A stretch of 41,584 nucleotides of DNA from an uncultured bacterium (GTDB taxonomy: Bacteria > Atribacterota > Atribacteria > Atribacterales > Caldatribacteriaceae). The position numbers and the translations under genes were made by a program. The stretch is from contig CALAIW010000018.1 of NCBI GenBank assembly GCA_937922705.1, positions 1 through 41,584 of the forward strand, given 5' to 3'. Under the pieces are notes generated by a model, which saw only the letters and a list, made by a program, of their open reading frames with translations, was not told where the DNA came from and did no database searches. This document shows positions 1,044 through 10,740 of the stretch, piece by piece (positions within the stretch are counted from its first letter, which is position 1; every line of letters starts with the position of its first letter).

Positions 1044-1496
1044 ATGCTTCAGATAGGAAGGGTTCTGTGTCTTGAGAGGGAATATGCCCTGGTGCACATG
1101 GAGAAAAAGTCTGGGTGTGGTGGGGAACGATGCCCCTTGAGCTCTTCTCTTATTGATGACTCTCAAAGCGACTTTTACACTATCCGTGCCTGGAATGAGA
1201 TAGGTGCATCCCCAGGAGACCTTGTGCTCGTTGCGGTAAAAGACCAAACGGTACTTACCATAGCCTTTCTCCTCTACATTGTTCCCATACTCTCTGCTCT
1301 CCTGGCATATCTTCTTTTCCGCTTTCTTACCGCCTCCGAGTCCTTGGCAATTTTTGGGCTTTTCGGAAGCCTTGGAATGTCATTTCTTTTTCTTCGAAGA
1401 CTCAACAGAAAATTTACCATTGAATACCGAATCGTGGAGCGCGTGTCCTCAAAAGAGTGCAGTACGTGCCCTCTTCTTTTGCAACCCAGGCGGTGA
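1044..1496 (+). CDS. RseC/MucC-family membrane protein (SoxR-reducing-system type)
   Basis: This 150-residue protein has the RseC layout: a short N-terminal domain with a cysteine group (SGCGGERCP), a small beta-rich segment, two membrane segments at about residues 70-95 and 103-118, and a basic tail ending in a second cysteine pair (CSTCP). RseC proteins are found with the Rnf-like SoxR-reducing system or as regulators of envelope-stress sigma factors; no rnf/rsx gene is in view. The start is the ATG at 1044, with AAGGAG at 1025-1030 rather far upstream (about 13 bases). An ATG at 1034 is closer to that site but opens only a 13-codon frame. The stop overlaps the GTG of the following sensor gene (GTGA), which implies translational coupling. 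Function beyond redox or membrane sensing is unclear. Confidence 0.72.
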   Translation: MLQIGRVLCLEREYALVHMEKKSGCGGERCPLSSSLIDDSQSDFYTIRAWNEIGASPGDLVLVAVKDQTVLTIAFLLYIVPILSALLAYLLFRFLTASESLAIFGLFGSLGMSFLFLRRLNRKFTIEYRIVERVSSKECSTCPLLLQPRR

Positions 1497-4400
1497 AAAC
1501 GGTGAAGCAGTCTTTTGGAGTCCTTGTGACACCAAGGGTACACGGGTACGGAGCCATACTCTTTGGATTTCTCCTCCTCTTTGTCTTTGTGGCCTTTCAT
1601 GGAAGACTCATGGAAGAACCCCTACCTGTGTGGCTCTCTTTCCTTCTTGGGGGTATCACTTCCCTTGCTTTTGGTGTCCTCACTCTTGTTTCTAAAGAAA
1701 GAGTTCTTTCGCAAAAGGTAGTCGAACAAGAAAGGCTTCTTGGATTTCTCCTTGAGTACATCCCCGACCACGTGTACTTCAAGGACCGACAAAGTCGCTT
1801 CATTGGTGGCAGTCGCTCTCTTGCCCAGTACTTTGGTCTTGAGCGTGTCGAAGACCTTATCGGGAAAACCGATTTCGACTTCTTTGCCTCCCCTCACGCT
1901 GAAGAAGCCTATGCCGACGAGCAGCGCATCATAGAAACAGGAGAGGCCATTGTGGGTAAAGTGGAACGGGAAACCTGGCCTGATGGAGGCATAAGCTGGG
2001 TGCTCACCACCAAAGTTCCTCTCCGGAACGAAAAAGGAGAAATCATTGGCATTGTTGGGATATCGAAGGATATCACTGAACTCAAAGAAAAGGAAGAAAC
2101 TCTTGAAAGGGAACGACAATTCTTAAACAGCGTTTTTGAGGGGATTCAAGACGGTCTCTCGGTCCTGAGCAAAGACCTCACCATCCTTCGGGTGAACTCA
2201 TTTATGGAACGCCTTTATGAAGAGGCCATGCCCCTTGTGGGGAAAAAGTGCTACGAAGCGTATCACGGGCGCCAGGCTCCCTGCTTTTTCTGTCCTACGA
2301 TTCCAGCAATGGAAATGAAGCAAAAAGTAACCCACATTGTTCCTTACACCAAAAAGGGCGAGGTCCAGGGTTGGCTTGAGCTTACCGCTTATCCTTTTAT
2401 CGACAAAGAAGGTAACGTTCTTGGAGTCATCGAGCACGTCAAGGACATTACCGACCGCATTACGGCTGAGGATGCCCTTCGGGAGAGTGAGCGTAAATTC
2501 CGAACAATTACTCGCCTTGCCCCGGCAGCAATCGTCATTTACCAGGACAATCGTTTCGTGTGGTGCAACGAAGAGGCTGAGCGCCTCACCGGATACACTC
2601 AAGAGGAGCTCTTTTCTCTCCCTCCAGACTTTGTAGTCCATCCAGATTTCAAAGAACGAGTACGGAAAAACATGATGCTCCGACAGGAGGGAAAAGAGGC
2701 GGAGTTGCAGTACGAGGCAAAGATTGTGCGAAAAGACGGTGAAGAACGTTGGATCCTCATTCGAGGAGCCACAATCCATTACCGGGGAAGACCCGCAGGC
2801 CTTGGAGTAGTCCTTGATATCACACAAGAAAAAGAGCGAGAAGCCCGGCTTTTACATCTCAACAAGGTGCTCAAGTCTGTTCGCAATGTAAACCAACTCA
2901 TCACTCGCGAAAAGGGCCGAGAAAGACTCGTACAGGGTATTTGCCGAGAACTCGTTGAGGGTTGCGGGTATACCGGTGCCTGCGTTGCCCTCTTTTTAGG
3001 AGACGACACGCCCCCATACACAGTAGGCTTAGGGTTCTCCAAGGAAGCCCTTGAGGCCTTTAGCACAACGTGCGATTTCGAGAAAGCCCGCAAAGAGCTT
3101 CAAAAGGGTGCTGCAAAGAGAGTATCAAAAATCTACCCTGGTGATCCTTGTGAAGCACCTCTTGGGCATCTTCTCCAGCCACAAGAAGGGCTTTTTGTTG
3201 CTCCTCTTGAATGGGGAGAAAGATTCTACGGGTTTCTTGTAGCATCTCTGCCTCTTGTTTTTTGGGAAGATGAGGAGGAAGAGATGCTCTTTCTTGAGCT
3301 CTCTCAAGACCTTTCTTTCGCCCTCTACAGCATTGACCTTGAAGAGGCTCGCGCGAAAGCTCAAAAAATCCTTGAAGCAAGCGAGGAAAAATTCCGAACC
3401 CTCGCTGAGTCACTTCCCGTAGCGGTACTCATCAGAACACAAGAAAGTTGGGTCTATGCCAACCCCTTCCTTGAAGCCCTCACAGGATACAAACCTGATG
3501 AATTTCTGAGGAATAACCTATGGCAGGAAATTTCTCCAGAAGGAGCTTGCCTTATCAACAGGTGGGAAAAGGAACTAGGCTCTATCCCCTTTGAGCAGGA
3601 ATTTGCGCTTACCACACGAGGTGGCCAAAAGAAATGGGTTCTTGCCCGTTTTACCCCTATACGGTACGAGGAGAAAGACGCACTCCTCGTACTCCTCCTT
3701 GATCTGACCGAGCGCAAACTTGCCGAGGAACGTGTTCGATACCTCACGTTTCATGACGTCCTCACTGGGCTCTACAACCGAACGTTTCTTGAACAAGAGA
3801 TGGTTCGCCTTGACACCCCAGAAAACCTCCCCCTTAGTGTCATTATGGGAGATCTCAATGGGCTGAAGCTTGTCAACGACACTTTTGGCCATGCCATGGG
3901 GGATGAACTTCTGCGCCAGGCAGCACGCACCCTCGAGAGAGTATGTGGAAATAAAGGGACTATCGTTCGACTCGGGGGTGATGAGTTCGTCGTACTTCTG
4001 CCCCGTACTTCGAGTGCGGAAGTCCAGGCCTTAGGTGAACGTATCCAGGAGGAATTCAAGAAAACCAAAATTGAATCCATTCCTTTGAGCATTTCCCTTG
4101 GTTATGGTACCAAAACTGACCCTGAACAACCCCTGGATGAAGTCCTTCGGATTGCGGAAAACTGGATGTACCAGAGGAAACTTACCGAAAGCCTCAGCTT
4201 CCACAACCAGGTTCTCCAGGCCTTTCGGGCTTCGCTTCGCGCGGTAACCCAGGAAACAGAAGAACACTCACAGCGCATCCGAGATCTTGCCCTGCGTCTT
4301 GGAAAGGCCTTAGGACTTTCACAGCGGGAACTCGATGAACTGAGCCTTCTTGCCGAATTCCACGACATTGGGAAAATTGCCATTCCTCAGAATGTTCTTG

Positions 4401-4798
4401 AAAAGCCTGGACCTCTTGATGAGGAAGAATGGGCTATTGTCAAAAAACACCCGGAAGTGGGATTTCGGATTACCCAGTCTATATGGGAACTTTCTTCCAT
4501 CGCCAACTACATTCTCTTCCACCATGAGTGCTTTGACGGTACAGGATACCCAAGAGGTCTCAAAGGAGAGGATATCCCCCTTCTTTCCCGCATCATTGCC
4601 ATCTGTGACGCTTATGATGTCATGATCAGTGGCCGCCCGTACCGAAAAGCACGAACTAAGGAAGAGGCTATCGCAGAGCTTAAACGCTGCAGCGGAACGC
4701 AATTTGACCCTCGTATTGTGGAGGCTTTTCTTGCTATCCTTGAGGAGTCGAAGCCCCAAGATCCGTCGGTGCCCGCCCCAGAGACCGCAAAAGACTGA
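1493..4798 (+). CDS. Membrane-anchored PAS/GAF sensor with GGDEF and HD-GYP output
   Basis: A 1101-residue signalling protein predicted to make and break cyclic di-GMP. After two membrane segments (about residues 20-38 and 46-66) come PAS1 (about 85-195), PAS2 (about 210-325), PAS3 (about 340-450), a GAF-like region (about 465-625), PAS4 (about 640-745), GGDEF (about 755-910) and HD-GYP (about 920-1080). The cyclase signature GGDEF and the substrate loop MGDLNGLKLVNDTFGH are intact, but the RxxD inhibitory site normally five residues before GGDEF is absent (GNKG instead). The phosphodiesterase has HDIGK and HHECFDGTGYP intact. PAS2 carries a three-cysteine motif (C-x10-C-x2-C) also found in the regulator at 30017. 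I chose GTG 1493 because it overlaps the rseC stop as GTGA; ATG 1457 in the same frame is possible. The 3' end overlaps the convergent gene by 65 bases. Confidence 0.9.
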   Translation: MKTVKQSFGVLVTPRVHGYGAILFGFLLLFVFVAFHGRLMEEPLPVWLSFLLGGITSLAFGVLTLVSKERVLSQKVVEQERLLGFLLEYIPDHVYFKDRQSRFIGGSRSLAQYFGLERVEDLIGKTDFDFFASPHAEEAYADEQRIIETGEAIVGKVERETWPDGGISWVLTTKVPLRNEKGEIIGIVGISKDITELKEKEETLERERQFLNSVFEGIQDGLSVLSKDLTILRVNSFMERLYEEAMPLVGKKCYEAYHGRQAPCFFCPTIPAMEMKQKVTHIVPYTKKGEVQGWLELTAYPFIDKEGNVLGVIEHVKDITDRITAEDALRESERKFRTITRLAPAAIVIYQDNRFVWCNEEAERLTGYTQEELFSLPPDFVVHPDFKERVRKNMMLRQEGKEAELQYEAKIVRKDGEERWILIRGATIHYRGRPAGLGVVLDITQEKEREARLLHLNKVLKSVRNVNQLITREKGRERLVQGICRELVEGCGYTGACVALFLGDDTPPYTVGLGFSKEALEAFSTTCDFEKARKELQKGAAKRVSKIYPGDPCEAPLGHLLQPQEGLFVAPLEWGERFYGFLVASLPLVFWEDEEEEMLFLELSQDLSFALYSIDLEEARAKAQKILEASEEKFRTLAESLPVAVLIRTQESWVYANPFLEALTGYKPDEFLRNNLWQEISPEGACLINRWEKELGSIPFEQEFALTTRGGQKKWVLARFTPIRYEEKDALLVLLLDLTERKLAEERVRYLTFHDVLTGLYNRTFLEQEMVRLDTPENLPLSVIMGDLNGLKLVNDTFGHAMGDELLRQAARTLERVCGNKGTIVRLGGDEFVVLLPRTSSAEVQALGERIQEEFKKTKIESIPLSISLGYGTKTDPEQPLDEVLRIAENWMYQRKLTESLSFHNQVLQAFRASLRAVTQETEEHSQRIRDLALRLGKALGLSQRELDELSLLAEFHDIGKIAIPQNVLEKPGPLDEEEWAIVKKHPEVGFRITQSIWELSSIANYILFHHECFDGTGYPRGLKGEDIPLLSRIIAICDAYDVMISGRPYRKARTKEEAIAELKRCSGTQFDPRIVEAFLAILEESKPQDPSVPAPETAKD

Positions 4799-6047
4799 GC
4801 GTAGCGGCAATCTGTTCCTCTATCGTTTCCCCCTCATGGGCTCTCTCGGGATAGAGGGTGTACCTTGAGCGAAACGAAAGAGGCGTTACATTGAGCATCA
4901 AAGAGTTTGCACCCGCCAGAAGACCAAGACGCGCCGCCTGAGGATCAAGGGTCTCAAAGGCTGTAGTAACAAGAATCTTCGCATTTTTAGGGTCCACAAG
5001 ACGAGCTATCGCGAGGGTGTTCAGGACAAGAGAAGGTGACGGCGGGAAACAGTGCGAAAGAGGAGTTGCAGGATGGGGAATAAAAGGACCAAAACTGTAC
5101 ATCTCGGCAGAAAGGGACTTTGCAAGGAGCACGTCATTGAGGATATCCTCAAGGGTTTGCCCCGGAAGTCCAATAAGCCCTCCGGTAGCTATAAGGTACC
5201 CAATTTCCTGGGCTTTCTCAAGGTGTGCTAAGCGAGTTCCAAGAGTGTATCCAAGATGGAGTTTTGCATAAAGTGCGGGGTTGCTTGTTTCAAAACGAAG
5301 AAGAAGCCCTCGAGCCCCAGCTTCGTAGAGTTTTTCCAGAGCCTCAAGGCCAACCTCTCCAAAACTCACAAAAATGAGAACGGCGTAGTGCTTTTGAATG
5401 GTGCGAATGATACGAACAAGGTCATCAAGAGGCCTCTTGGGGTCCTCTCCACTCTGGAGGACAAGAGACTGAAATCCGTACACCTCCACCGCCTCATGGA
5501 CAGCAGCAAGAATTTCTTCTTCAGTCATGCGGTACCGAGAAAGGTCTCGGTTGTGTGAGGAAAGGCCACAATAGGCGCAATTTCGGTGACAAAAGCTCGA
5601 AATTTCAAGGATTCCGTGAACACAGGCCCCATTCCCAAGGTTTTTCCAGCGTAGGAAATTGGCCACTTTGTATAAATATTCCCGCTCTTGAGGTGTTTCA
5701 AGGCGCAAAAGCTCAAGGAGTTCTTCTTTTGTGAGGGGACGCTCTTCTAAAGCCTTGTCGAGGATGCGGAGAACCTTCTTGGCTACACCTTCGCTTTTTA
5801 CAGCAAGGCGACTCAAGCGAAGATCCATCTCTTGCAACTCAAAAAAAGTTTCCTTCCAAACCGCAAGAATGTCCTGGGCTTCCTGCGGTGGAAGAACTTT
5901 AATGACAAATCCTCCCTGAGCGTAGACAAAATCTCCAACTCGCAGAGAGGGTATTTCATTGTATGCTTTTTTGCGTTCTCCAAAGTACTCAATGGTTGCT
6001 ACACGCCCGTCAAGAGCCACAACTTGTCCCGGAATGGCGTAACACAT
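4734..6047 (-). CDS. HypC domain fused to a HydE-type radical SAM enzyme
   Basis: A 437-residue fusion. Residues 1-75 match HypC, the [NiFe] hydrogenase chaperone that carries the Fe(CN)2CO unit: it begins MCYAIPGQV with the conserved Cys2 and ends RVGDFVYAQGGFVIKV, where the usual VHVGFA histidine is replaced by Gln43. After a helical linker (about 76-135), residues 140-425 match HydE: the radical SAM triad C153/C157/C160 in CHRNCAYCGL, RYRMTEEEI, LVLQSGED, the LLLRFETSNP strand, GGLIGLPGQT and GPFIPHPATPL. HydE normally works on the [FeFe] H-cluster. The C-terminal cysteines of the optional second HydE cluster are missing. It is the last gene of the hydrogenase operon, 9 bases after hypA, with GAGGAA before the ATG. 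Domain calls are firm; a role in making or delivering the Fe ligands of the [NiFe] site is inference. Confidence 0.88.
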   Translation of the reverse strand: MCYAIPGQVVALDGRVATIEYFGERKKAYNEIPSLRVGDFVYAQGGFVIKVLPPQEAQDILAVWKETFFELQEMDLRLSRLAVKSEGVAKKVLRILDKALEERPLTKEELLELLRLETPQEREYLYKVANFLRWKNLGNGACVHGILEISSFCHRNCAYCGLSSHNRDLSRYRMTEEEILAAVHEAVEVYGFQSLVLQSGEDPKRPLDDLVRIIRTIQKHYAVLIFVSFGEVGLEALEKLYEAGARGLLLRFETSNPALYAKLHLGYTLGTRLAHLEKAQEIGYLIATGGLIGLPGQTLEDILNDVLLAKSLSAEMYSFGPFIPHPATPLSHCFPPSPSLVLNTLAIARLVDPKNAKILVTTAFETLDPQAARLGLLAGANSLMLNVTPLSFRSRYTLYPERAHEGETIEEQIAATLSLLRSLGRAPTDLGASTPQG

Positions 6048-6056
6048 ATCGTTTCC

Positions 6057-6299
6057 TCATTCTCCCTCGAACCCAAGAAGTCGCAGCTCCCGAACCGGAC
6101 TTTCTTCGATGACTAACTCTGCACCCTCAAGGATGGTCCCCGGAGAGGACTCGGCAAACAAATGGCGCACAATTTCTGGGTCAATTTCTGTAAACCCTCC
6201 TATACGGAGGTACACTCTGGTAATCCGCTGCATCCCTTCCTCTTCTCCGCGCCGCAAAAGGTCTTCAAAAAGCTCTCGAACCAAACGAAGCTCATGCAC
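6057..6299 (-). CDS. HypA-like nickel-insertion protein lacking the zinc domain
   Basis: HypA delivers nickel to the [NiFe] hydrogenase large subunit. Starting at the GTG at 6299 gives an 80-residue protein beginning M-H-E, which places the nickel-binding His at position 2 as in all HypA. The body follows the family (LVRELFEDLLRRGEEEG, ITRVYLRIGGFTEIDPEIVRHLF, EGAELVIEESPV) and then passes directly to the usual HypA tail (RELRLLGFEGE). The intervening zinc finger with its two CxxC pairs, normally about 30 residues, is absent and the protein has no cysteine at all. The start overlaps the protease stop by 8 bases. Longer starts upstream would push His2 inside the protein and are unlikely. Whether the shortened protein is functional cannot be judged from sequence alone. 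Confidence 0.8.
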   Translation of the reverse strand: MHELRLVRELFEDLLRRGEEEGMQRITRVYLRIGGFTEIDPEIVRHLFAESSPGTILEGAELVIEESPVRELRLLGFEGE

Positions 6300-6786
6300 A
6301 CCCCACAACCTCCTCGAGGTAGGCAAGAATAGCCTGCGCAGCCTCTCGCACCGCCTCAGTCAGTCCTTCTCCAAAGGAGACATCCCGAGGTTGAATTCCT
6401 ACAAAGAAAACGGGACAACCTGCTTCCTCAGCAACAATGCGTGCTACGATGGGAAGAGGAAATGTATGCGTACTTAGTGTGGAAGCTGCAATCTCCTCCT
6501 CTTCGAGGACCCGGATTTCTCCCGGTTTTCCCCCAAAAGAGGCGGCATCAATAAACACGACTTTGGCGGGATGTTCCCGGAGAATATCGTCAAACACACG
6601 TTCGGGAGCAAACCCGGCAAGGACAACCGAAAAGAAAGGCAAACCTCTTCGCCCTATCTCCTCCCCGATGTACACTCCCACTCCATCGTCACGCCGGAGT
6701 GGATTCCCCACCGCCACAAGAACGGTTTTTTTACCCTTTAAAGGACGAAGAACCTCTTTTACCCTATCGTCCAACAAAGGAGACAT
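6292..6786 (-). CDS. [NiFe] hydrogenase maturation endopeptidase (HycI/HyaD family)
   Basis: This peptidase clips the C-terminal tail of the large subunit after nickel insertion. The 164-residue protein carries the family motifs VGNPLRRDDGVGV near residue 25, VFIDAA near residue 75 and STHTFPLP near residue 105; the Asp in DDGVG, the Asp in FIDAA and the His in THTF correspond to the nickel-sensing residues of HybD/HycI. The ATG at 6786 lies inside the 3' end of the large-subunit gene (23-base overlap), a normal arrangement for a substrate-protease pair. An upstream in-frame extension to 6891 lies wholly within the large-subunit gene and has no family similarity. The substrate is very probably the large subunit immediately upstream, whose predicted tail is nine residues. 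Confidence 0.88.
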   Translation of the reverse strand: MSPLLDDRVKEVLRPLKGKKTVLVAVGNPLRRDDGVGVYIGEEIGRRGLPFFSVVLAGFAPERVFDDILREHPAKVVFIDAASFGGKPGEIRVLEEEEIAASTLSTHTFPLPIVARIVAEEAGCPVFFVGIQPRDVSFGEGLTEAVREAAQAILAYLEEVVGCA

Positions 6787-8089
6787 TGAGAAAATGAGTC
6801 GAGCAAGAGATACAGGGATCGTAGGCCCGCACAAGCATCTCCAGAGCAAGCTGAATCTCTTCGTCACTTTGGTCAAGAATCTCGGGAACAAGTTTTCTCA
6901 TATCGTACTCGATGTTTCGGAGATTTTGCCCGGTAGGGATGACACAGTTGGCATTCACTATGCGGCCGTGGTCATCGACCTCATAGTGATGGTACAGCGT
7001 TCCGCGAGGCGCTTCCACCGCCCCAACTCCGCTTCCTGCCCGAACTGGGATACGCTTGGTCTCATTAAGACCCACAACGATTTCCTCTTCGTAATTGATT
7101 CCCGAATGTAAAAATTCTTCGACCACGTCTTTAGCATGATAGAGACAGTGAAAGCACTCCACAAGTTGTGCAACCGTATTGAGGTAAGGGTTTGTTACTT
7201 TTCGGTTCATGCCAAAGAAATCTCCAACCTCTTGTGCTTTAGGATGAAGTTTGGGGTAGTTGAGATTGAGGCGGGCTAGAGCTCCGACCATATAAGAATC
7301 ACGGCTCAAACGAGTGTGCTTTGCAGTGGAGTGGGGAACCACAAATTCGTTGGTGATTTTCTGGTATTCTCGCTTTGGCAAGCGGACACCATCGGTTGAG
7401 CCAATGTCTCCCATAAGGAGGGGATACTCTGCATCATCGGAAACAAGGGCCACGTACTCAGTATCTCGCTCAAACTCTGGGAAACGGAGCCCTTTCACAA
7501 GTTCTACAGTAGCCTCAAGGTCTGGGATCATGCTCTCCAGGAGTTTCTGCATGGCCTCAAGGTCCTGCGGGCGAGGGAGTTTGGTGAATCCGCCAACCAC
7601 AGAGCTTATAGGATGCACATGTCGCCCAACAAGAATGTCGCAGATGTCGTTGCAAGTTTTCTTAAGTCGTAGCGCTCTCCGGACCACAGTATTGTGGGTA
7701 TCCACAAGAGGAACAAAACTCTTCACCCCAAGAAGGTCTGGAGCGGCAAGAAAGTAGATGTGAAGGATGTGGCTATCGAGGATTTCGAGGTCAAGAAGGA
7801 GCTTTCGCAGTTTCACAGTTTGCTCACTTGGGGTAAAACCTATAGCATCCTCTGCAGCTTGAATAGAGGCAAGGGAATGGGCACAGGCACAAATACCACA
7901 GATACGGGAAGTAATATGCTGTGCCTCAAAAATAGACCGCCCCCGAAGCATGCCTTCAAAAAATCGTGGTGACTCAATAATTTCCAGACGGCATTCTTGC
8001 AATACTCCATCACGCACATCAATCACAATATTCCCGTGACCTTCGACTCTCGTCAGGTACTCCACATCAATGCGCACGCTTTTCTTCAT
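6764..8089 (-). CDS. hydA: [NiFe] hydrogenase large (alpha) subunit, group 3b type
   Basis: The 441-residue catalytic subunit has both nickel-binding motifs: N-terminal RICGICACAHS (Cys64, Cys67, with His71) and C-terminal DPCISCSTH (Cys426, Cys429, His432). The proton-transfer glutamate is in TRVEGHG (Glu16). Cleavage after His432 would remove FLNVSFVGR. Length and the beta-gamma-delta-alpha gene order match the soluble NAD(P)-linked hydrogenase/sulfhydrogenases of group 3b, such as Pyrococcus furiosus SHI. It probably couples reversible H2 oxidation to NAD(P)+ in the cytoplasm and may reduce polysulfide; the direction and electron carrier preference are inferred. It overlaps the small-subunit gene by 23 bases and the protease gene by 23. 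Here hydA means the [NiFe] alpha subunit, not the unrelated [FeFe] HydA. Confidence 0.94.
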   Translation of the reverse strand: MKKSVRIDVEYLTRVEGHGNIVIDVRDGVLQECRLEIIESPRFFEGMLRGRSIFEAQHITSRICGICACAHSLASIQAAEDAIGFTPSEQTVKLRKLLLDLEILDSHILHIYFLAAPDLLGVKSFVPLVDTHNTVVRRALRLKKTCNDICDILVGRHVHPISSVVGGFTKLPRPQDLEAMQKLLESMIPDLEATVELVKGLRFPEFERDTEYVALVSDDAEYPLLMGDIGSTDGVRLPKREYQKITNEFVVPHSTAKHTRLSRDSYMVGALARLNLNYPKLHPKAQEVGDFFGMNRKVTNPYLNTVAQLVECFHCLYHAKDVVEEFLHSGINYEEEIVVGLNETKRIPVRAGSGVGAVEAPRGTLYHHYEVDDHGRIVNANCVIPTGQNLRNIEYDMRKLVPEILDQSDEEIQLALEMLVRAYDPCISCSTHFLNVSFVGR

Positions 8090-8846
8090 AGACCATTCCT
8101 GCTCCCTTCAGTATTCGGCAGGCATTGTACATGTCCATTCTCCGCAGGAGAAACTCAAGGCTTATCCCATACTGTCTTAAAACCTCAAGGAACCCCTTCT
8201 CGTTCGGATTCGACACCATTCCCCGGCACCCATAACAAATATTGCCGTTATTAATGCACCAGGAATTGCACCCTGCTCGAGTAATGGGACCAAGACAGGT
8301 GATTCCCCGCTCATAGAAACAGACGTTTTCGTTGAACTTACACTCCACGCAAACAGCTACGTCTGGCACATGGTAGGGAATACCCAAAAGCGCACACTTG
8401 AGGACTTCAAGGAATTCTGGTTGATACACCGGGCACCCATGGACAAAGTACTCTACTGGAACAACCTCATGTACCGGTTTTGTGGGAAGCGTTTCGAAAA
8501 ACTTTGCGCTCTCGCCATACACGTATCGCTTGATTTCCTCAAGATCAAAAGCGTTCTTCATCCCATTAACGCCACCGATAGTGGCGCAGGATCCATAGGC
8601 AATAAGAGTCTTCGAACGCTCGCGAATCTTTCGTATCCTTGCAACATCGTGAGGTGTGGTAATACTTCCTTCCACAATGGCGACATCGTAAACCCCATCC
8701 CATCGTTCGCTCATCGTCTCTCGAAACTCCACAAGATCGATAGAGTCCAAGAGTTCAAGAAGGAGCTCACCGAGATTGGCCACCTGGAGCTGGCAACCCT
8801 CACAGCAGGTAAAGTCAAAAAACGCCACTTTTGGTGCCTTCATCAT
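8067..8846 (-). CDS. hydD: [NiFe] hydrogenase small (delta) subunit
   Basis: This 259-residue subunit relays electrons from the active site. The proximal [4Fe-4S] ligands are visible as TCCEGCQ near residue 14-17, YGSCATIGG and FVHGCPVYQPEF. The C-terminal half has two more clusters, with cysteines in VCVECKFNENVC, ITCLGP, AGCNSWC and NICYGCRG, as in group 3 enzymes. There is no Tat signal peptide, in keeping with a cytoplasmic complex. Two adjacent ATG codons open the gene; the first overlaps the gamma-subunit stop as ATGA. It is the third gene of the hydBGDA operon. Confidence 0.94.
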   Translation of the reverse strand: MMKAPKVAFFDFTCCEGCQLQVANLGELLLELLDSIDLVEFRETMSERWDGVYDVAIVEGSITTPHDVARIRKIRERSKTLIAYGSCATIGGVNGMKNAFDLEEIKRYVYGESAKFFETLPTKPVHEVVPVEYFVHGCPVYQPEFLEVLKCALLGIPYHVPDVAVCVECKFNENVCFYERGITCLGPITRAGCNSWCINNGNICYGCRGMVSNPNEKGFLEVLRQYGISLEFLLRRMDMYNACRILKGAGMVYEEKRAH

Positions 8847-9679
8847 ATCGCCCCTTTAAGGTTTTTAATCCGCTCATAAAAGAAAACCGGGCCATCTTGG
8901 CAACAGTAAATGTCGTGGATTTGACAATGACCACATTTCCCAAGGCCACATTTCATGTGCCGCTCAAGGGAAAGAACAATCTGGCTTTCGGGAATGCCCT
9001 TCTTCAAAAGCTCGGCAATCACGAACCGGTACATAACTGGGGGACCCACCATAACAGCAAAGGTTTCCTCAGGGTTTATATCGATCCCAGGGATAAGAGA
9101 GGTCACAAGGCCCACGTTACCTTTCCAATCAGGGTCTGCTCTGTCCACCGTGCATTGGAACCCCACATCCATACGGCGCTGCCACTCCTCGATTTCATCC
9201 TGAAAGAGGAGATTCTGAGGATCCCTACACCCAAAAAGGACGTGAACCCTCCCAAAATCACGCCGATTATCGAGGATATACTTGATAAGCGAACGCAATG
9301 GAGCAAGACCTATACCCCCGGCAACAAGCAAAAGATCATGCCCAATGAGCTTAGTGATTGGAAAACCAACTCCAAAGGGACCACGAATACCAACAACATC
9401 TCCTGGTTCAAGGCGGTGTAAGGCATGGGTCAGCCGTCCTACCGCACGTACGCAGAGTTCAAAGCTTTTCCGCTGGGTCGGTGAGGAGGAGAGAGATATT
9501 GGCGCCTCCCCTATACCCACCAGGGAAACCTCCACAAATTGCCCCGGCTCAAAATCCAAAATTTCTCCCCCTACAAGAGCAAGCTCAAAGAGCTTGTCGC
9601 TTTCGGTGAGGCGGGTAACGCGGAGAATCCGAGCCTCTCTAACCTCATATCCTGTATGGCTGATACGGATTTTTTCCAT
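8843..9679 (-). CDS. hydG: Hydrogenase gamma subunit: FAD/NAD(P)-binding reductase with 2Fe-2S
   Basis: The 278-residue flavoprotein passes electrons to or from NAD(P). The FAD-binding beta barrel contains PGQFVEVSLVGIGEAPISLSS (about 45-65), with a second FAD contact near VGIRGPFGVGFP. The nucleotide-binding fold has GGIGLAPLRSL (about 119-129) and MVGPPVMYRF. A C-terminal [2Fe-2S] motif of the dihydroorotate dehydrogenase electron-transfer type is present: CGLGKCGHCQ followed by Cys residues in DIYCCQDGP. The start ATG at 9679 lies 14 bases after the beta-subunit stop. The symbol follows Pyrococcus usage and is unrelated to the radical SAM protein also called HydG. Confidence 0.92.
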   Translation of the reverse strand: MEKIRISHTGYEVREARILRVTRLTESDKLFELALVGGEILDFEPGQFVEVSLVGIGEAPISLSSSPTQRKSFELCVRAVGRLTHALHRLEPGDVVGIRGPFGVGFPITKLIGHDLLLVAGGIGLAPLRSLIKYILDNRRDFGRVHVLFGCRDPQNLLFQDEIEEWQRRMDVGFQCTVDRADPDWKGNVGLVTSLIPGIDINPEETFAVMVGPPVMYRFVIAELLKKGIPESQIVLSLERHMKCGLGKCGHCQIHDIYCCQDGPVFFYERIKNLKGAI

Positions 9680-9693
9680 GGTTCCACCCCGAA

Positions 9694-10740
9694 CTAGACC
9701 TTGAGATACCCCGTTTCCCGGGCAAGTTGTGCAATAGTCTCCTTGAGGTCAATTTTTGCCATACACACACGACTGCACCGCCCACAACCCGTGCAGAAGA
9801 AGCGATTGTACCGTTTCACCGGGTAGGAAAACTTTCGATTGAATCGGTGGCGTTTCCGATCAGACCGTTCCGCTCTGAAACTCTCTCCACTTGCAATCTT
9901 AGCAAAAGGCTCATTCTGGCACGAGTCCCAAACTCGAATACGCTTCCCTGTTCGGAGATCCAGGTTCATAACATCTTTCACATCAAAGCAGTAACAGGTG
10001 GGACACACATTCGTGCAATTCGCGCAAGAAAGGCATCGGTTGCCAACATCTTCCCAAACCTTTGCCTCAAACCCTTCCTGGAACATGCGGGGCAAAAGGA
10101 AACGGTCAACAGGAACCTCAGGGCGAAAGATCTCGGCCTTTTTTGCCCGAAGGAGCTGCAAATCCCAGAAATGCCTTGATTCTGCCCTTTGGAAAAGCGA
10201 AAAATTCGCAACTATATCCTCTCCCCTTTGTGTCCCCACATGGACAAAAAAGTAATCCCCAAGATCGGTGAAAAAGAGGTCATACCCACCTTGAGGAAGA
10301 AACGTTCCCATAAGCCCGCAAGAGGCGTACTGATCACAATACTCGTTACACTCAAGTCCTATGATGGTAACGTATCCTCTGCGGACAAGGTAATTGAGGT
10401 CTTTTGGACGGTCGCTAAATACCACGTCAAGACACTGTATGCCAGCAAGATCACAGGTGTGAACCCCAAAGAGAACGATGTGCTCTACCTCAACCACAGG
10501 ATACAGCTTTTGCCCTTCCCGGATATCGTATTCGGCAAGAGTTTCGTACTGAGGCATAAAGTACTTCTTGGGAGGAAGGATGGTGGGGATATACTTGAGA
10601 GCAATATCTCTCGCATCCGTAACTTCCTCAAAGGCAAAATGGCGTTCACTCTTTGCCACCGGAGCTATAACCTTACCGTACTGTCTCAGGGCATCTACAA
10701 AAGAACCTAAGGCACTCTTTGGAAGAACGGCGTACTCCAC
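9694..10740 (-). CDS. hydB: Hydrogenase beta subunit: 4Fe-4S ferredoxin-like
   Basis: First gene of the operon, 348 residues. It belongs to the sulfhydrogenase beta/anaerobic sulfite reductase A family. The N-terminal two thirds has scattered conserved cysteines (VHTCDLAGI, LECNEYCDQYASCG). Two C-terminal [4Fe-4S] motifs are present: CLSCANCTNVCPTC and CTGCGRCSRVCMAKID. It links the flavin subunit to external acceptors and, in the archaeal enzymes, is associated with sulfur reduction. The start is the GTG at 10740, preceded by a full AAAGGAGGT ribosome site and, 22 bases further up, a recognisable promoter. Confidence 0.92.
   Translation of the reverse strand: MEYAVLPKSALGSFVDALRQYGKVIAPVAKSERHFAFEEVTDARDIALKYIPTILPPKKYFMPQYETLAEYDIREGQKLYPVVEVEHIVLFGVHTCDLAGIQCLDVVFSDRPKDLNYLVRRGYVTIIGLECNEYCDQYASCGLMGTFLPQGGYDLFFTDLGDYFFVHVGTQRGEDIVANFSLFQRAESRHFWDLQLLRAKKAEIFRPEVPVDRFLLPRMFQEGFEAKVWEDVGNRCLSCANCTNVCPTCYCFDVKDVMNLDLRTGKRIRVWDSCQNEPFAKIASGESFRAERSDRKRHRFNRKFSYPVKRYNRFFCTGCGRCSRVCMAKIDLKETIAQLARETGYLKV

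Follow-up and report, generated by a model that had tools for sequence, protein, structure and literature searches.

A HypC–HydE fusion protein that, together with HydG, probably replaces HypD, HypE and HypF in [NiFe] hydrogenase maturation

The anaerobic synthesis of the [NiFe] hydrogenase cofactor has been described in a 2025 review as requiring six Hyp proteins, with the anaerobic source of its CO ligand still unsettled (PMC12134894). In this ordinary route, cyanide is obtained from carbamoyl phosphate by HypF and HypE (PMC12134894) and the Fe(CN)2CO unit is held between Cys2 of HypC and Cys41 of HypD (PMC11565642). In the route leading to [FeFe] hydrogenases, HydG converts tyrosine into Fe(CO)2(CN)Cys, which is passed to HydE, where the unit is reduced by SAM-radical adenosylation (PMC12752695, PMC11736057, PMC3105041). 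We found no report in the open-access literature of a protein combining HypC and HydE, or of HydE or HydG acting in [NiFe] maturation, and a published paper on the hydrogenases of WOR-1 leaves maturation aside. The fusion protein described here ties together these two pathways, which have been regarded as separate.

The fusion is encoded on contig CALAIW010000018.1 of an uncultured bacterium of the Caldatribacteriaceae (Atribacterota), of which a stretch of 41,584 nucleotides, referred to as the window, was analyzed (Table 1). A preliminary description had placed a HypC-HydE fusion at positions 4734–6047, and a single ORF of exactly this span is indeed found on the minus strand. Its residues 1–64 match the Pfam family HupF_HypC with 49.3 bits (cut-off 28.5) and residues 148–306 match Radical_SAM with 67.1 bits (cut-off 29.5), while the NCBIfam HydE model TIGR03956 covers residues 96–413 with 236.2 bits (E 6e-70), just short of the curated cut-off of 254.6, and the HypC model TIGR00074 scores 40.8 bits, below its cut-off of 48. 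The nearest solved structures are HydE from T. maritima (39% identity over about 336 columns in a fold search) and HypC. In an AlphaFold2 model of high confidence (pLDDT 92.1, pTM 0.92), the barrel superimposes on T. maritima HydE, including its complex-B-bound forms, with TM-scores (target) of 0.90–0.96 and a best rmsd of 1.5 Å, and the radical SAM cysteines and the HydE barrel are both intact, in line with the preliminary description. Orthologues in seven other Atribacterota genomes and, beyond Atribacterota, in seven or more phyla, together with the purifying selection evident from a dN/dS of 0.05–0.08 against the two nearest relatives, rule out that the fusion arose by chance or as an accident of assembly. 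The gene of Ca. C. saccharofermentans OP9-77CS (G014, L073:2224-3375) contains a frameshift in its middle, which is probably an error of the draft assembly. A search for viral carriage of the fusion gave no match.

Table 1. Features of the fusion gene and its surroundings, in positions of the window.
Feature	Position	Strand	Basis or remark
HypC-HydE fusion protein, 437 aa	4734..6047	minus	single unbroken ORF, ATG start
HypC domain, residues 1–75	5823..6047	minus	Pfam HupF_HypC
HypC Cys2	6042..6044	minus	N-terminal Met-Cys2, 44/44 fusions
Gln44, in place of the conserved HypC His	5916..5918	minus	Gln in 44/44 fusions; His in 13/13 ordinary HypC
HydE-like radical SAM barrel, residues about 91–431	4755..5777	minus	HydE profile, fold search, AlphaFold2 model
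Radical SAM CxxxCxxC, Cys153/157/160	5568..5591	minus	44/44 fusions
Fusion-specific Cys142 and His144	5616..5624	minus	44/44 fusions vs 0/21 stand-alone HydE
Short HypA, 80 aa from GTG at 6299	6057..6299	minus	HypA profile 2–70 of 112; no C-terminal zinc-finger half
HycI-type hydrogenase maturation protease	6292..6891	minus	profile match; true start probably later
[NiFe] hydrogenase large subunit, group 3b type	6764..8089	minus	four cysteine ligands; EAPRG and PT motifs of CN/CO site kept
[NiFe] hydrogenase small (delta) subunit	8067..8846	minus	profile match
FAD/NAD(P)-binding gamma subunit	8843..9679	minus	profile match
Fe-S beta subunit	9694..10740	minus	profile match
PAS/GGDEF/HD-GYP sensor gene	1457..4798	plus	convergent to the operon

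The fusion is the last gene of an operon that proceeds from the beta, gamma, small and large subunits of the hydrogenase via HycI to HypA, the very [NiFe] context that had been described, and no Hyp genes besides the short HypA and the fusion are found in this operon. The large subunit contains the motifs RICGICACAH and DPCISCSTH and a cleavable tail, and its intact ligand motifs rule out that it is degenerate. The truncated form of HypA recurs in many fusion operons, others containing a full-length HypA together with HypB. The large sensor gene on the opposite strand and the fusion gene overlap at their 3' ends by 65 bases.

Named relatives put the home genome close to Ca. Caldatribacterium. 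It is 99.4% complete and encodes HydE, HydF, HydG and two HydA on contigs other than that of the window. The preliminary description had regarded a complete [FeFe] set with the fusion as its only HydE as evidence against its proposal; such a set is present, but it includes a HydE of its own, and the fusion is thus an additional HydE-like protein. It is at the same time the sole HypC of this genome, as it is in all eight Atribacterota genomes that carry it, and in none of the eight, one of which is a single contig, did we detect HypD, HypF or HypE above the cut-off. Atribacterota relatives with an ordinary HypC contain HypD, HypF and HypE, with E-values of about 1e-150, 1e-38 and 1e-140, respectively. 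The HypE-like paralogues checked in two fusion genomes (G000 and G024) are missing the PRIC motif at the C-terminus, which a control HypE does contain. Within the home order, [NiFe] large subunits are limited to the eight genomes containing the fusion.

When species genomes were scanned for the two-domain architecture, full-length fusions turned up in no fewer than seven additional phyla, among them Omnitrophota, WOR-1, Mcinerneyibacterium, Fibrobacter/Chitinispirillaceae, a Patescibacterium, a MAG labelled as Gammaproteobacteria and a Micrarchaeon, a DPANN archaeon; most of the surveyed genomes are MAGs, and relatedness is taken into account in the counts only by the number of phyla. HypD, HypE and HypF are missing from the 11 non-Atribacterota fusion genomes that were searched, with a control genome scoring for all three, and a curated complete WOR-1 genome is without them. 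All 11 contain a [NiFe] large subunit with its four cysteine ligands and 10 of them HydG, while HydF was not found in six. Among 384 Omnitrophota, the fusion occurs in 42 genomes and HypD in at least 106 with no overlap, compared to 11.6 genomes expected to contain both (P 5e-7 ignoring relatedness, with two candidates scored per genome). The fusion operons carry subunits of group 1, group 3b and group 4 type, as assigned by similarity and gene context, and the suggestion that the fusion would track group 3b enzymes is thus not borne out. The Patescibacterial large subunit (L168:7158-8408) ends at its own DPCISCATH motif and therefore does not need cleavage by HycI.

The fusion had also been expected to accompany the absence of HydG, and here the opposite was found. 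In a targeted search for HydG, HydF and HydA in 66 genomes, including 37 fusion genomes and 20 HypD-bearing controls from Omnitrophota, HydG was detected in 36 of the 37 fusion genomes but in only one control (Fisher 6e-13, relatedness ignored), which also contains HydF and HydA. With seven out of eight fusion genomes from other phyla, the total amounts to 43/45 outside the home phylum, the two genomes where HydG was not found (G089, G059) being perhaps incomplete assemblies; in the Atribacterota drafts G012 and G015, no HydG was seen with a query designed for another protein. HydG is located immediately 3' of the fusion in 14/20 Omnitrophota neighbourhoods, and in one Omnitrophota genome (G139) HypC, HydE and HydG form a single ORF of 915 residues (L145:1501-4248) within a contig of 1.26 Mb. 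In 22 fusion genomes, namely 18 of the 37 Omnitrophota, two WOR-1 including the curated complete genome, one Patescibacterial and one Micrarchaeal, HydG is found with neither HydF nor HydA detected, based for the 18 Omnitrophota on all candidates in nine and on the best seven candidates in the rest, and an [FeFe] enzyme can thus not account for the HydG of these organisms. A gene for a Rex-like redox repressor (L092:11311-11949) is inserted between the fusion and HydG in one locus, and gaps of similar size are found in other operons. In the complete WOR-1 genome (L165:4203-10254), the neighbours of HydG are a radical SAM protein, a disulphide oxidoreductase and three MinD/Mrp-type P-loop ATPases, two of which carry ferredoxin domains.

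The HydG copies have retained the cysteines of the radical SAM motif and the outer two of the auxiliary cluster in 39/39 cases; the middle one is found at either of two neighbouring positions, among [NiFe]-linked as well as [FeFe]-linked copies. In a phylogenetic tree of HydG, both kinds interleave (7 changes compared to 13.3 when shuffled), and the existence of a single [NiFe]-dedicated clade is unsupported, indicating that no dedicated HydG has evolved. HydG thus appears to be interchangeable between both uses, in agreement with the home genome, whose one HydG would serve both types of enzymes. That this HydG is needed for the [FeFe] enzymes as well counts to some degree against the assignment proposed below.

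As the fusion genomes lack HypD, HypE and HypF, generally contain HydG and carry HydE joined to HypC, a relay leading from HydG via the HydE domain and Cys2 of HypC to the large subunit offers the simplest reading, and we consider it probable that HypC-HydE and HydG replace the three missing proteins, supplying both CO and cyanide from tyrosine. Its foundation is the observed gene content, domain structure, residue conservation, partnership with HydG and exclusion of HypD, from which each chemical step is inferred. In the absence of HypD, HypE and HypF, the fusion should cover cyanide and scaffold besides CO. Initially, HydG would split tyrosine into CO and cyanide and build Fe(CO)x(CN)y(cysteine) on its auxiliary cluster, a chemistry known for HydG and presumably shared by the fusion-linked copies. 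The Fe unit would then pass to the HydE-like barrel, much as HydE receives its substrate from HydG during [FeFe] maturation, and in this barrel SAM radical chemistry might remove the carrier cysteine, with one CO lost and one cyanide gained to yield Fe(CN)2CO. The unit would next reside on Cys2 of the fused HypC, perhaps bridged to Cys142 in place of Cys41 of HypD, before its transfer to the apo-large subunit, the insertion of nickel by HypA (and HypB where present) and the trimming of the tail by HycI.

The conversion within the barrel is the weakest of these steps because the known product of HydG has two CO and one CN. The discrepancy to a site with one CO and two CN would demand either an exchange of ligands or an unusual cofactor, which constitutes the main weak point of the proposal. 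It is possible that the iron center starts as, or even stays, Fe(CO)2(CN), although we regard this as less likely than the route itself since the motifs of the large subunit at the CN/CO site look ordinary. A separate maturation route, in which all CO and cyanide originate from tyrosine by a relay of HydG and HypC-HydE in bacteria and a DPANN archaeon, is still favoured, if with somewhat less assurance than the replacement of the Hyp proteins; this assessment applies to the route and not to the unusual ligand set. Our results support the view of the fusion as a radical SAM protein of the HydE type with a dedicated role in [NiFe] maturation. The related idea that Fe(CO)/CN is loaded onto HypC had overlooked the absence of HypD, HypE and HypF; its direction is probably correct, with a chemistry that we infer.

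The residues conserved in the fusion bear on whether the barrel is catalytic. In a tree, the HydE domains of the 44 fusions fall into a single clade (support 100) that excludes the 21 stand-alone HydE proteins. Equivalents of the T. maritima residues R159, R180, M291, Y303 and Y306 are each found in 44/44 fusions and M224 and T268 are also unchanged, all of which we take to be substrate-site positions of HydE, and the equivalent of T134 is F or C in most fusions. Newly invariant (44/44) are a Cys at T. maritima position 52 (Cys142), a His at 54 (His144), an Arg at 154 and a Ser at 226. Stand-alone HydE proteins contain His/Tyr and Arg at the first two of these positions, and the Cys/His pair is a candidate Fe ligand. 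This pair, the missing HypD and the HypC domain docked in the confident model would be compatible with a barrel that acts as stand-in for HypD, holding Fe(CN)2CO between Cys2 of HypC and one of its own cysteines without radical chemistry, with HydG alone making and ligating the Fe unit. We consider such a role unlikely, since the radical SAM cysteines and the SAM and substrate-site residues, which a pure scaffold should lose, are kept across eight phyla.

An earlier and narrower idea, in which the fusion and HydG provide CO alone and cyanide comes from another source, would address the unsettled origin of anaerobic CO in ordinary pathways (PMC12134894). It appears improbable in light of the missing HypE and HypF and since the tyrosine from which HydG makes CO also yields cyanide (PMC3105041), so that no further source of cyanide is needed. 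Even less probable is that the fusion serves [FeFe] maturation or some unrelated radical reaction, with HypC as mere docking domain: although HydE, HydF, HydG and HydA are all encoded in home genomes, the HydE is separate and the fusion belongs to [NiFe] operons, neither HydF nor HydA was detected in 22 fusion genomes and all 11 checked contain a [NiFe] enzyme, and the fusion genomes of the home phylum would be left without any HypC. Finally, that divergent HypD, HypE and HypF escaped detection or were lost from incomplete assemblies, as most genomes are MAGs, with the fusion as accessory, is highly improbable given their absence from a single-contig Atribacterota genome and a complete WOR-1 genome in presence of strong positive controls and the absence of HypD from the near-complete genomes G308 and G139 and all other fusion genomes.

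With the replacement of HypD, HypE and HypF as preferred reading, a large group of organisms from several phyla appears to manage without three of the six Hyp proteins, and tyrosine, via HydG, becomes a named candidate source for both types of ligands, which is directly testable by isotope labelling. HydG, HypC-HydE, HypA and HycI would also form a compact gene set for the production of [NiFe] enzymes in other hosts.

Among known systems, HypX, which generates CO from formyl-tetrahydrofolate, similarly is an extra enzyme that provides a ligand to the [NiFe] iron, but its chemistry is unrelated and it acts alongside HypCDEF under oxic conditions. In the synthesis of the [Fe]-hydrogenase cofactor by HmdB and Hcg, a radical SAM protein of the HydE/PylB family likewise takes part, but HypC is not involved, and the fusion scores 59 bits with the HmdB model compared to 236 with that of HydE. 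The HypCDEF pathway shares with the fusion system a HypC domain with Cys2, HypA, the HycI protease and an ordinary [NiFe] large subunit, whereas fusion genomes lack HypD, HypE and HypF, and their HypC is joined to a radical SAM barrel and has its His replaced by Gln. Conversely, the HydG-HydE relay of [FeFe] hydrogenases has in common the partner HydG and a HydE-like barrel in which the residues of the radical SAM motif and the substrate site are conserved; the fusion system differs from it by its [NiFe] client, by the lack of detectable HydF and HydA in 22 genomes and by a separate HydE clade with a new Cys/His pair. If its chemistry is confirmed, the fusion would define an additional route of hydrogenase maturation next to Hyp, HydEFG and Hcg.
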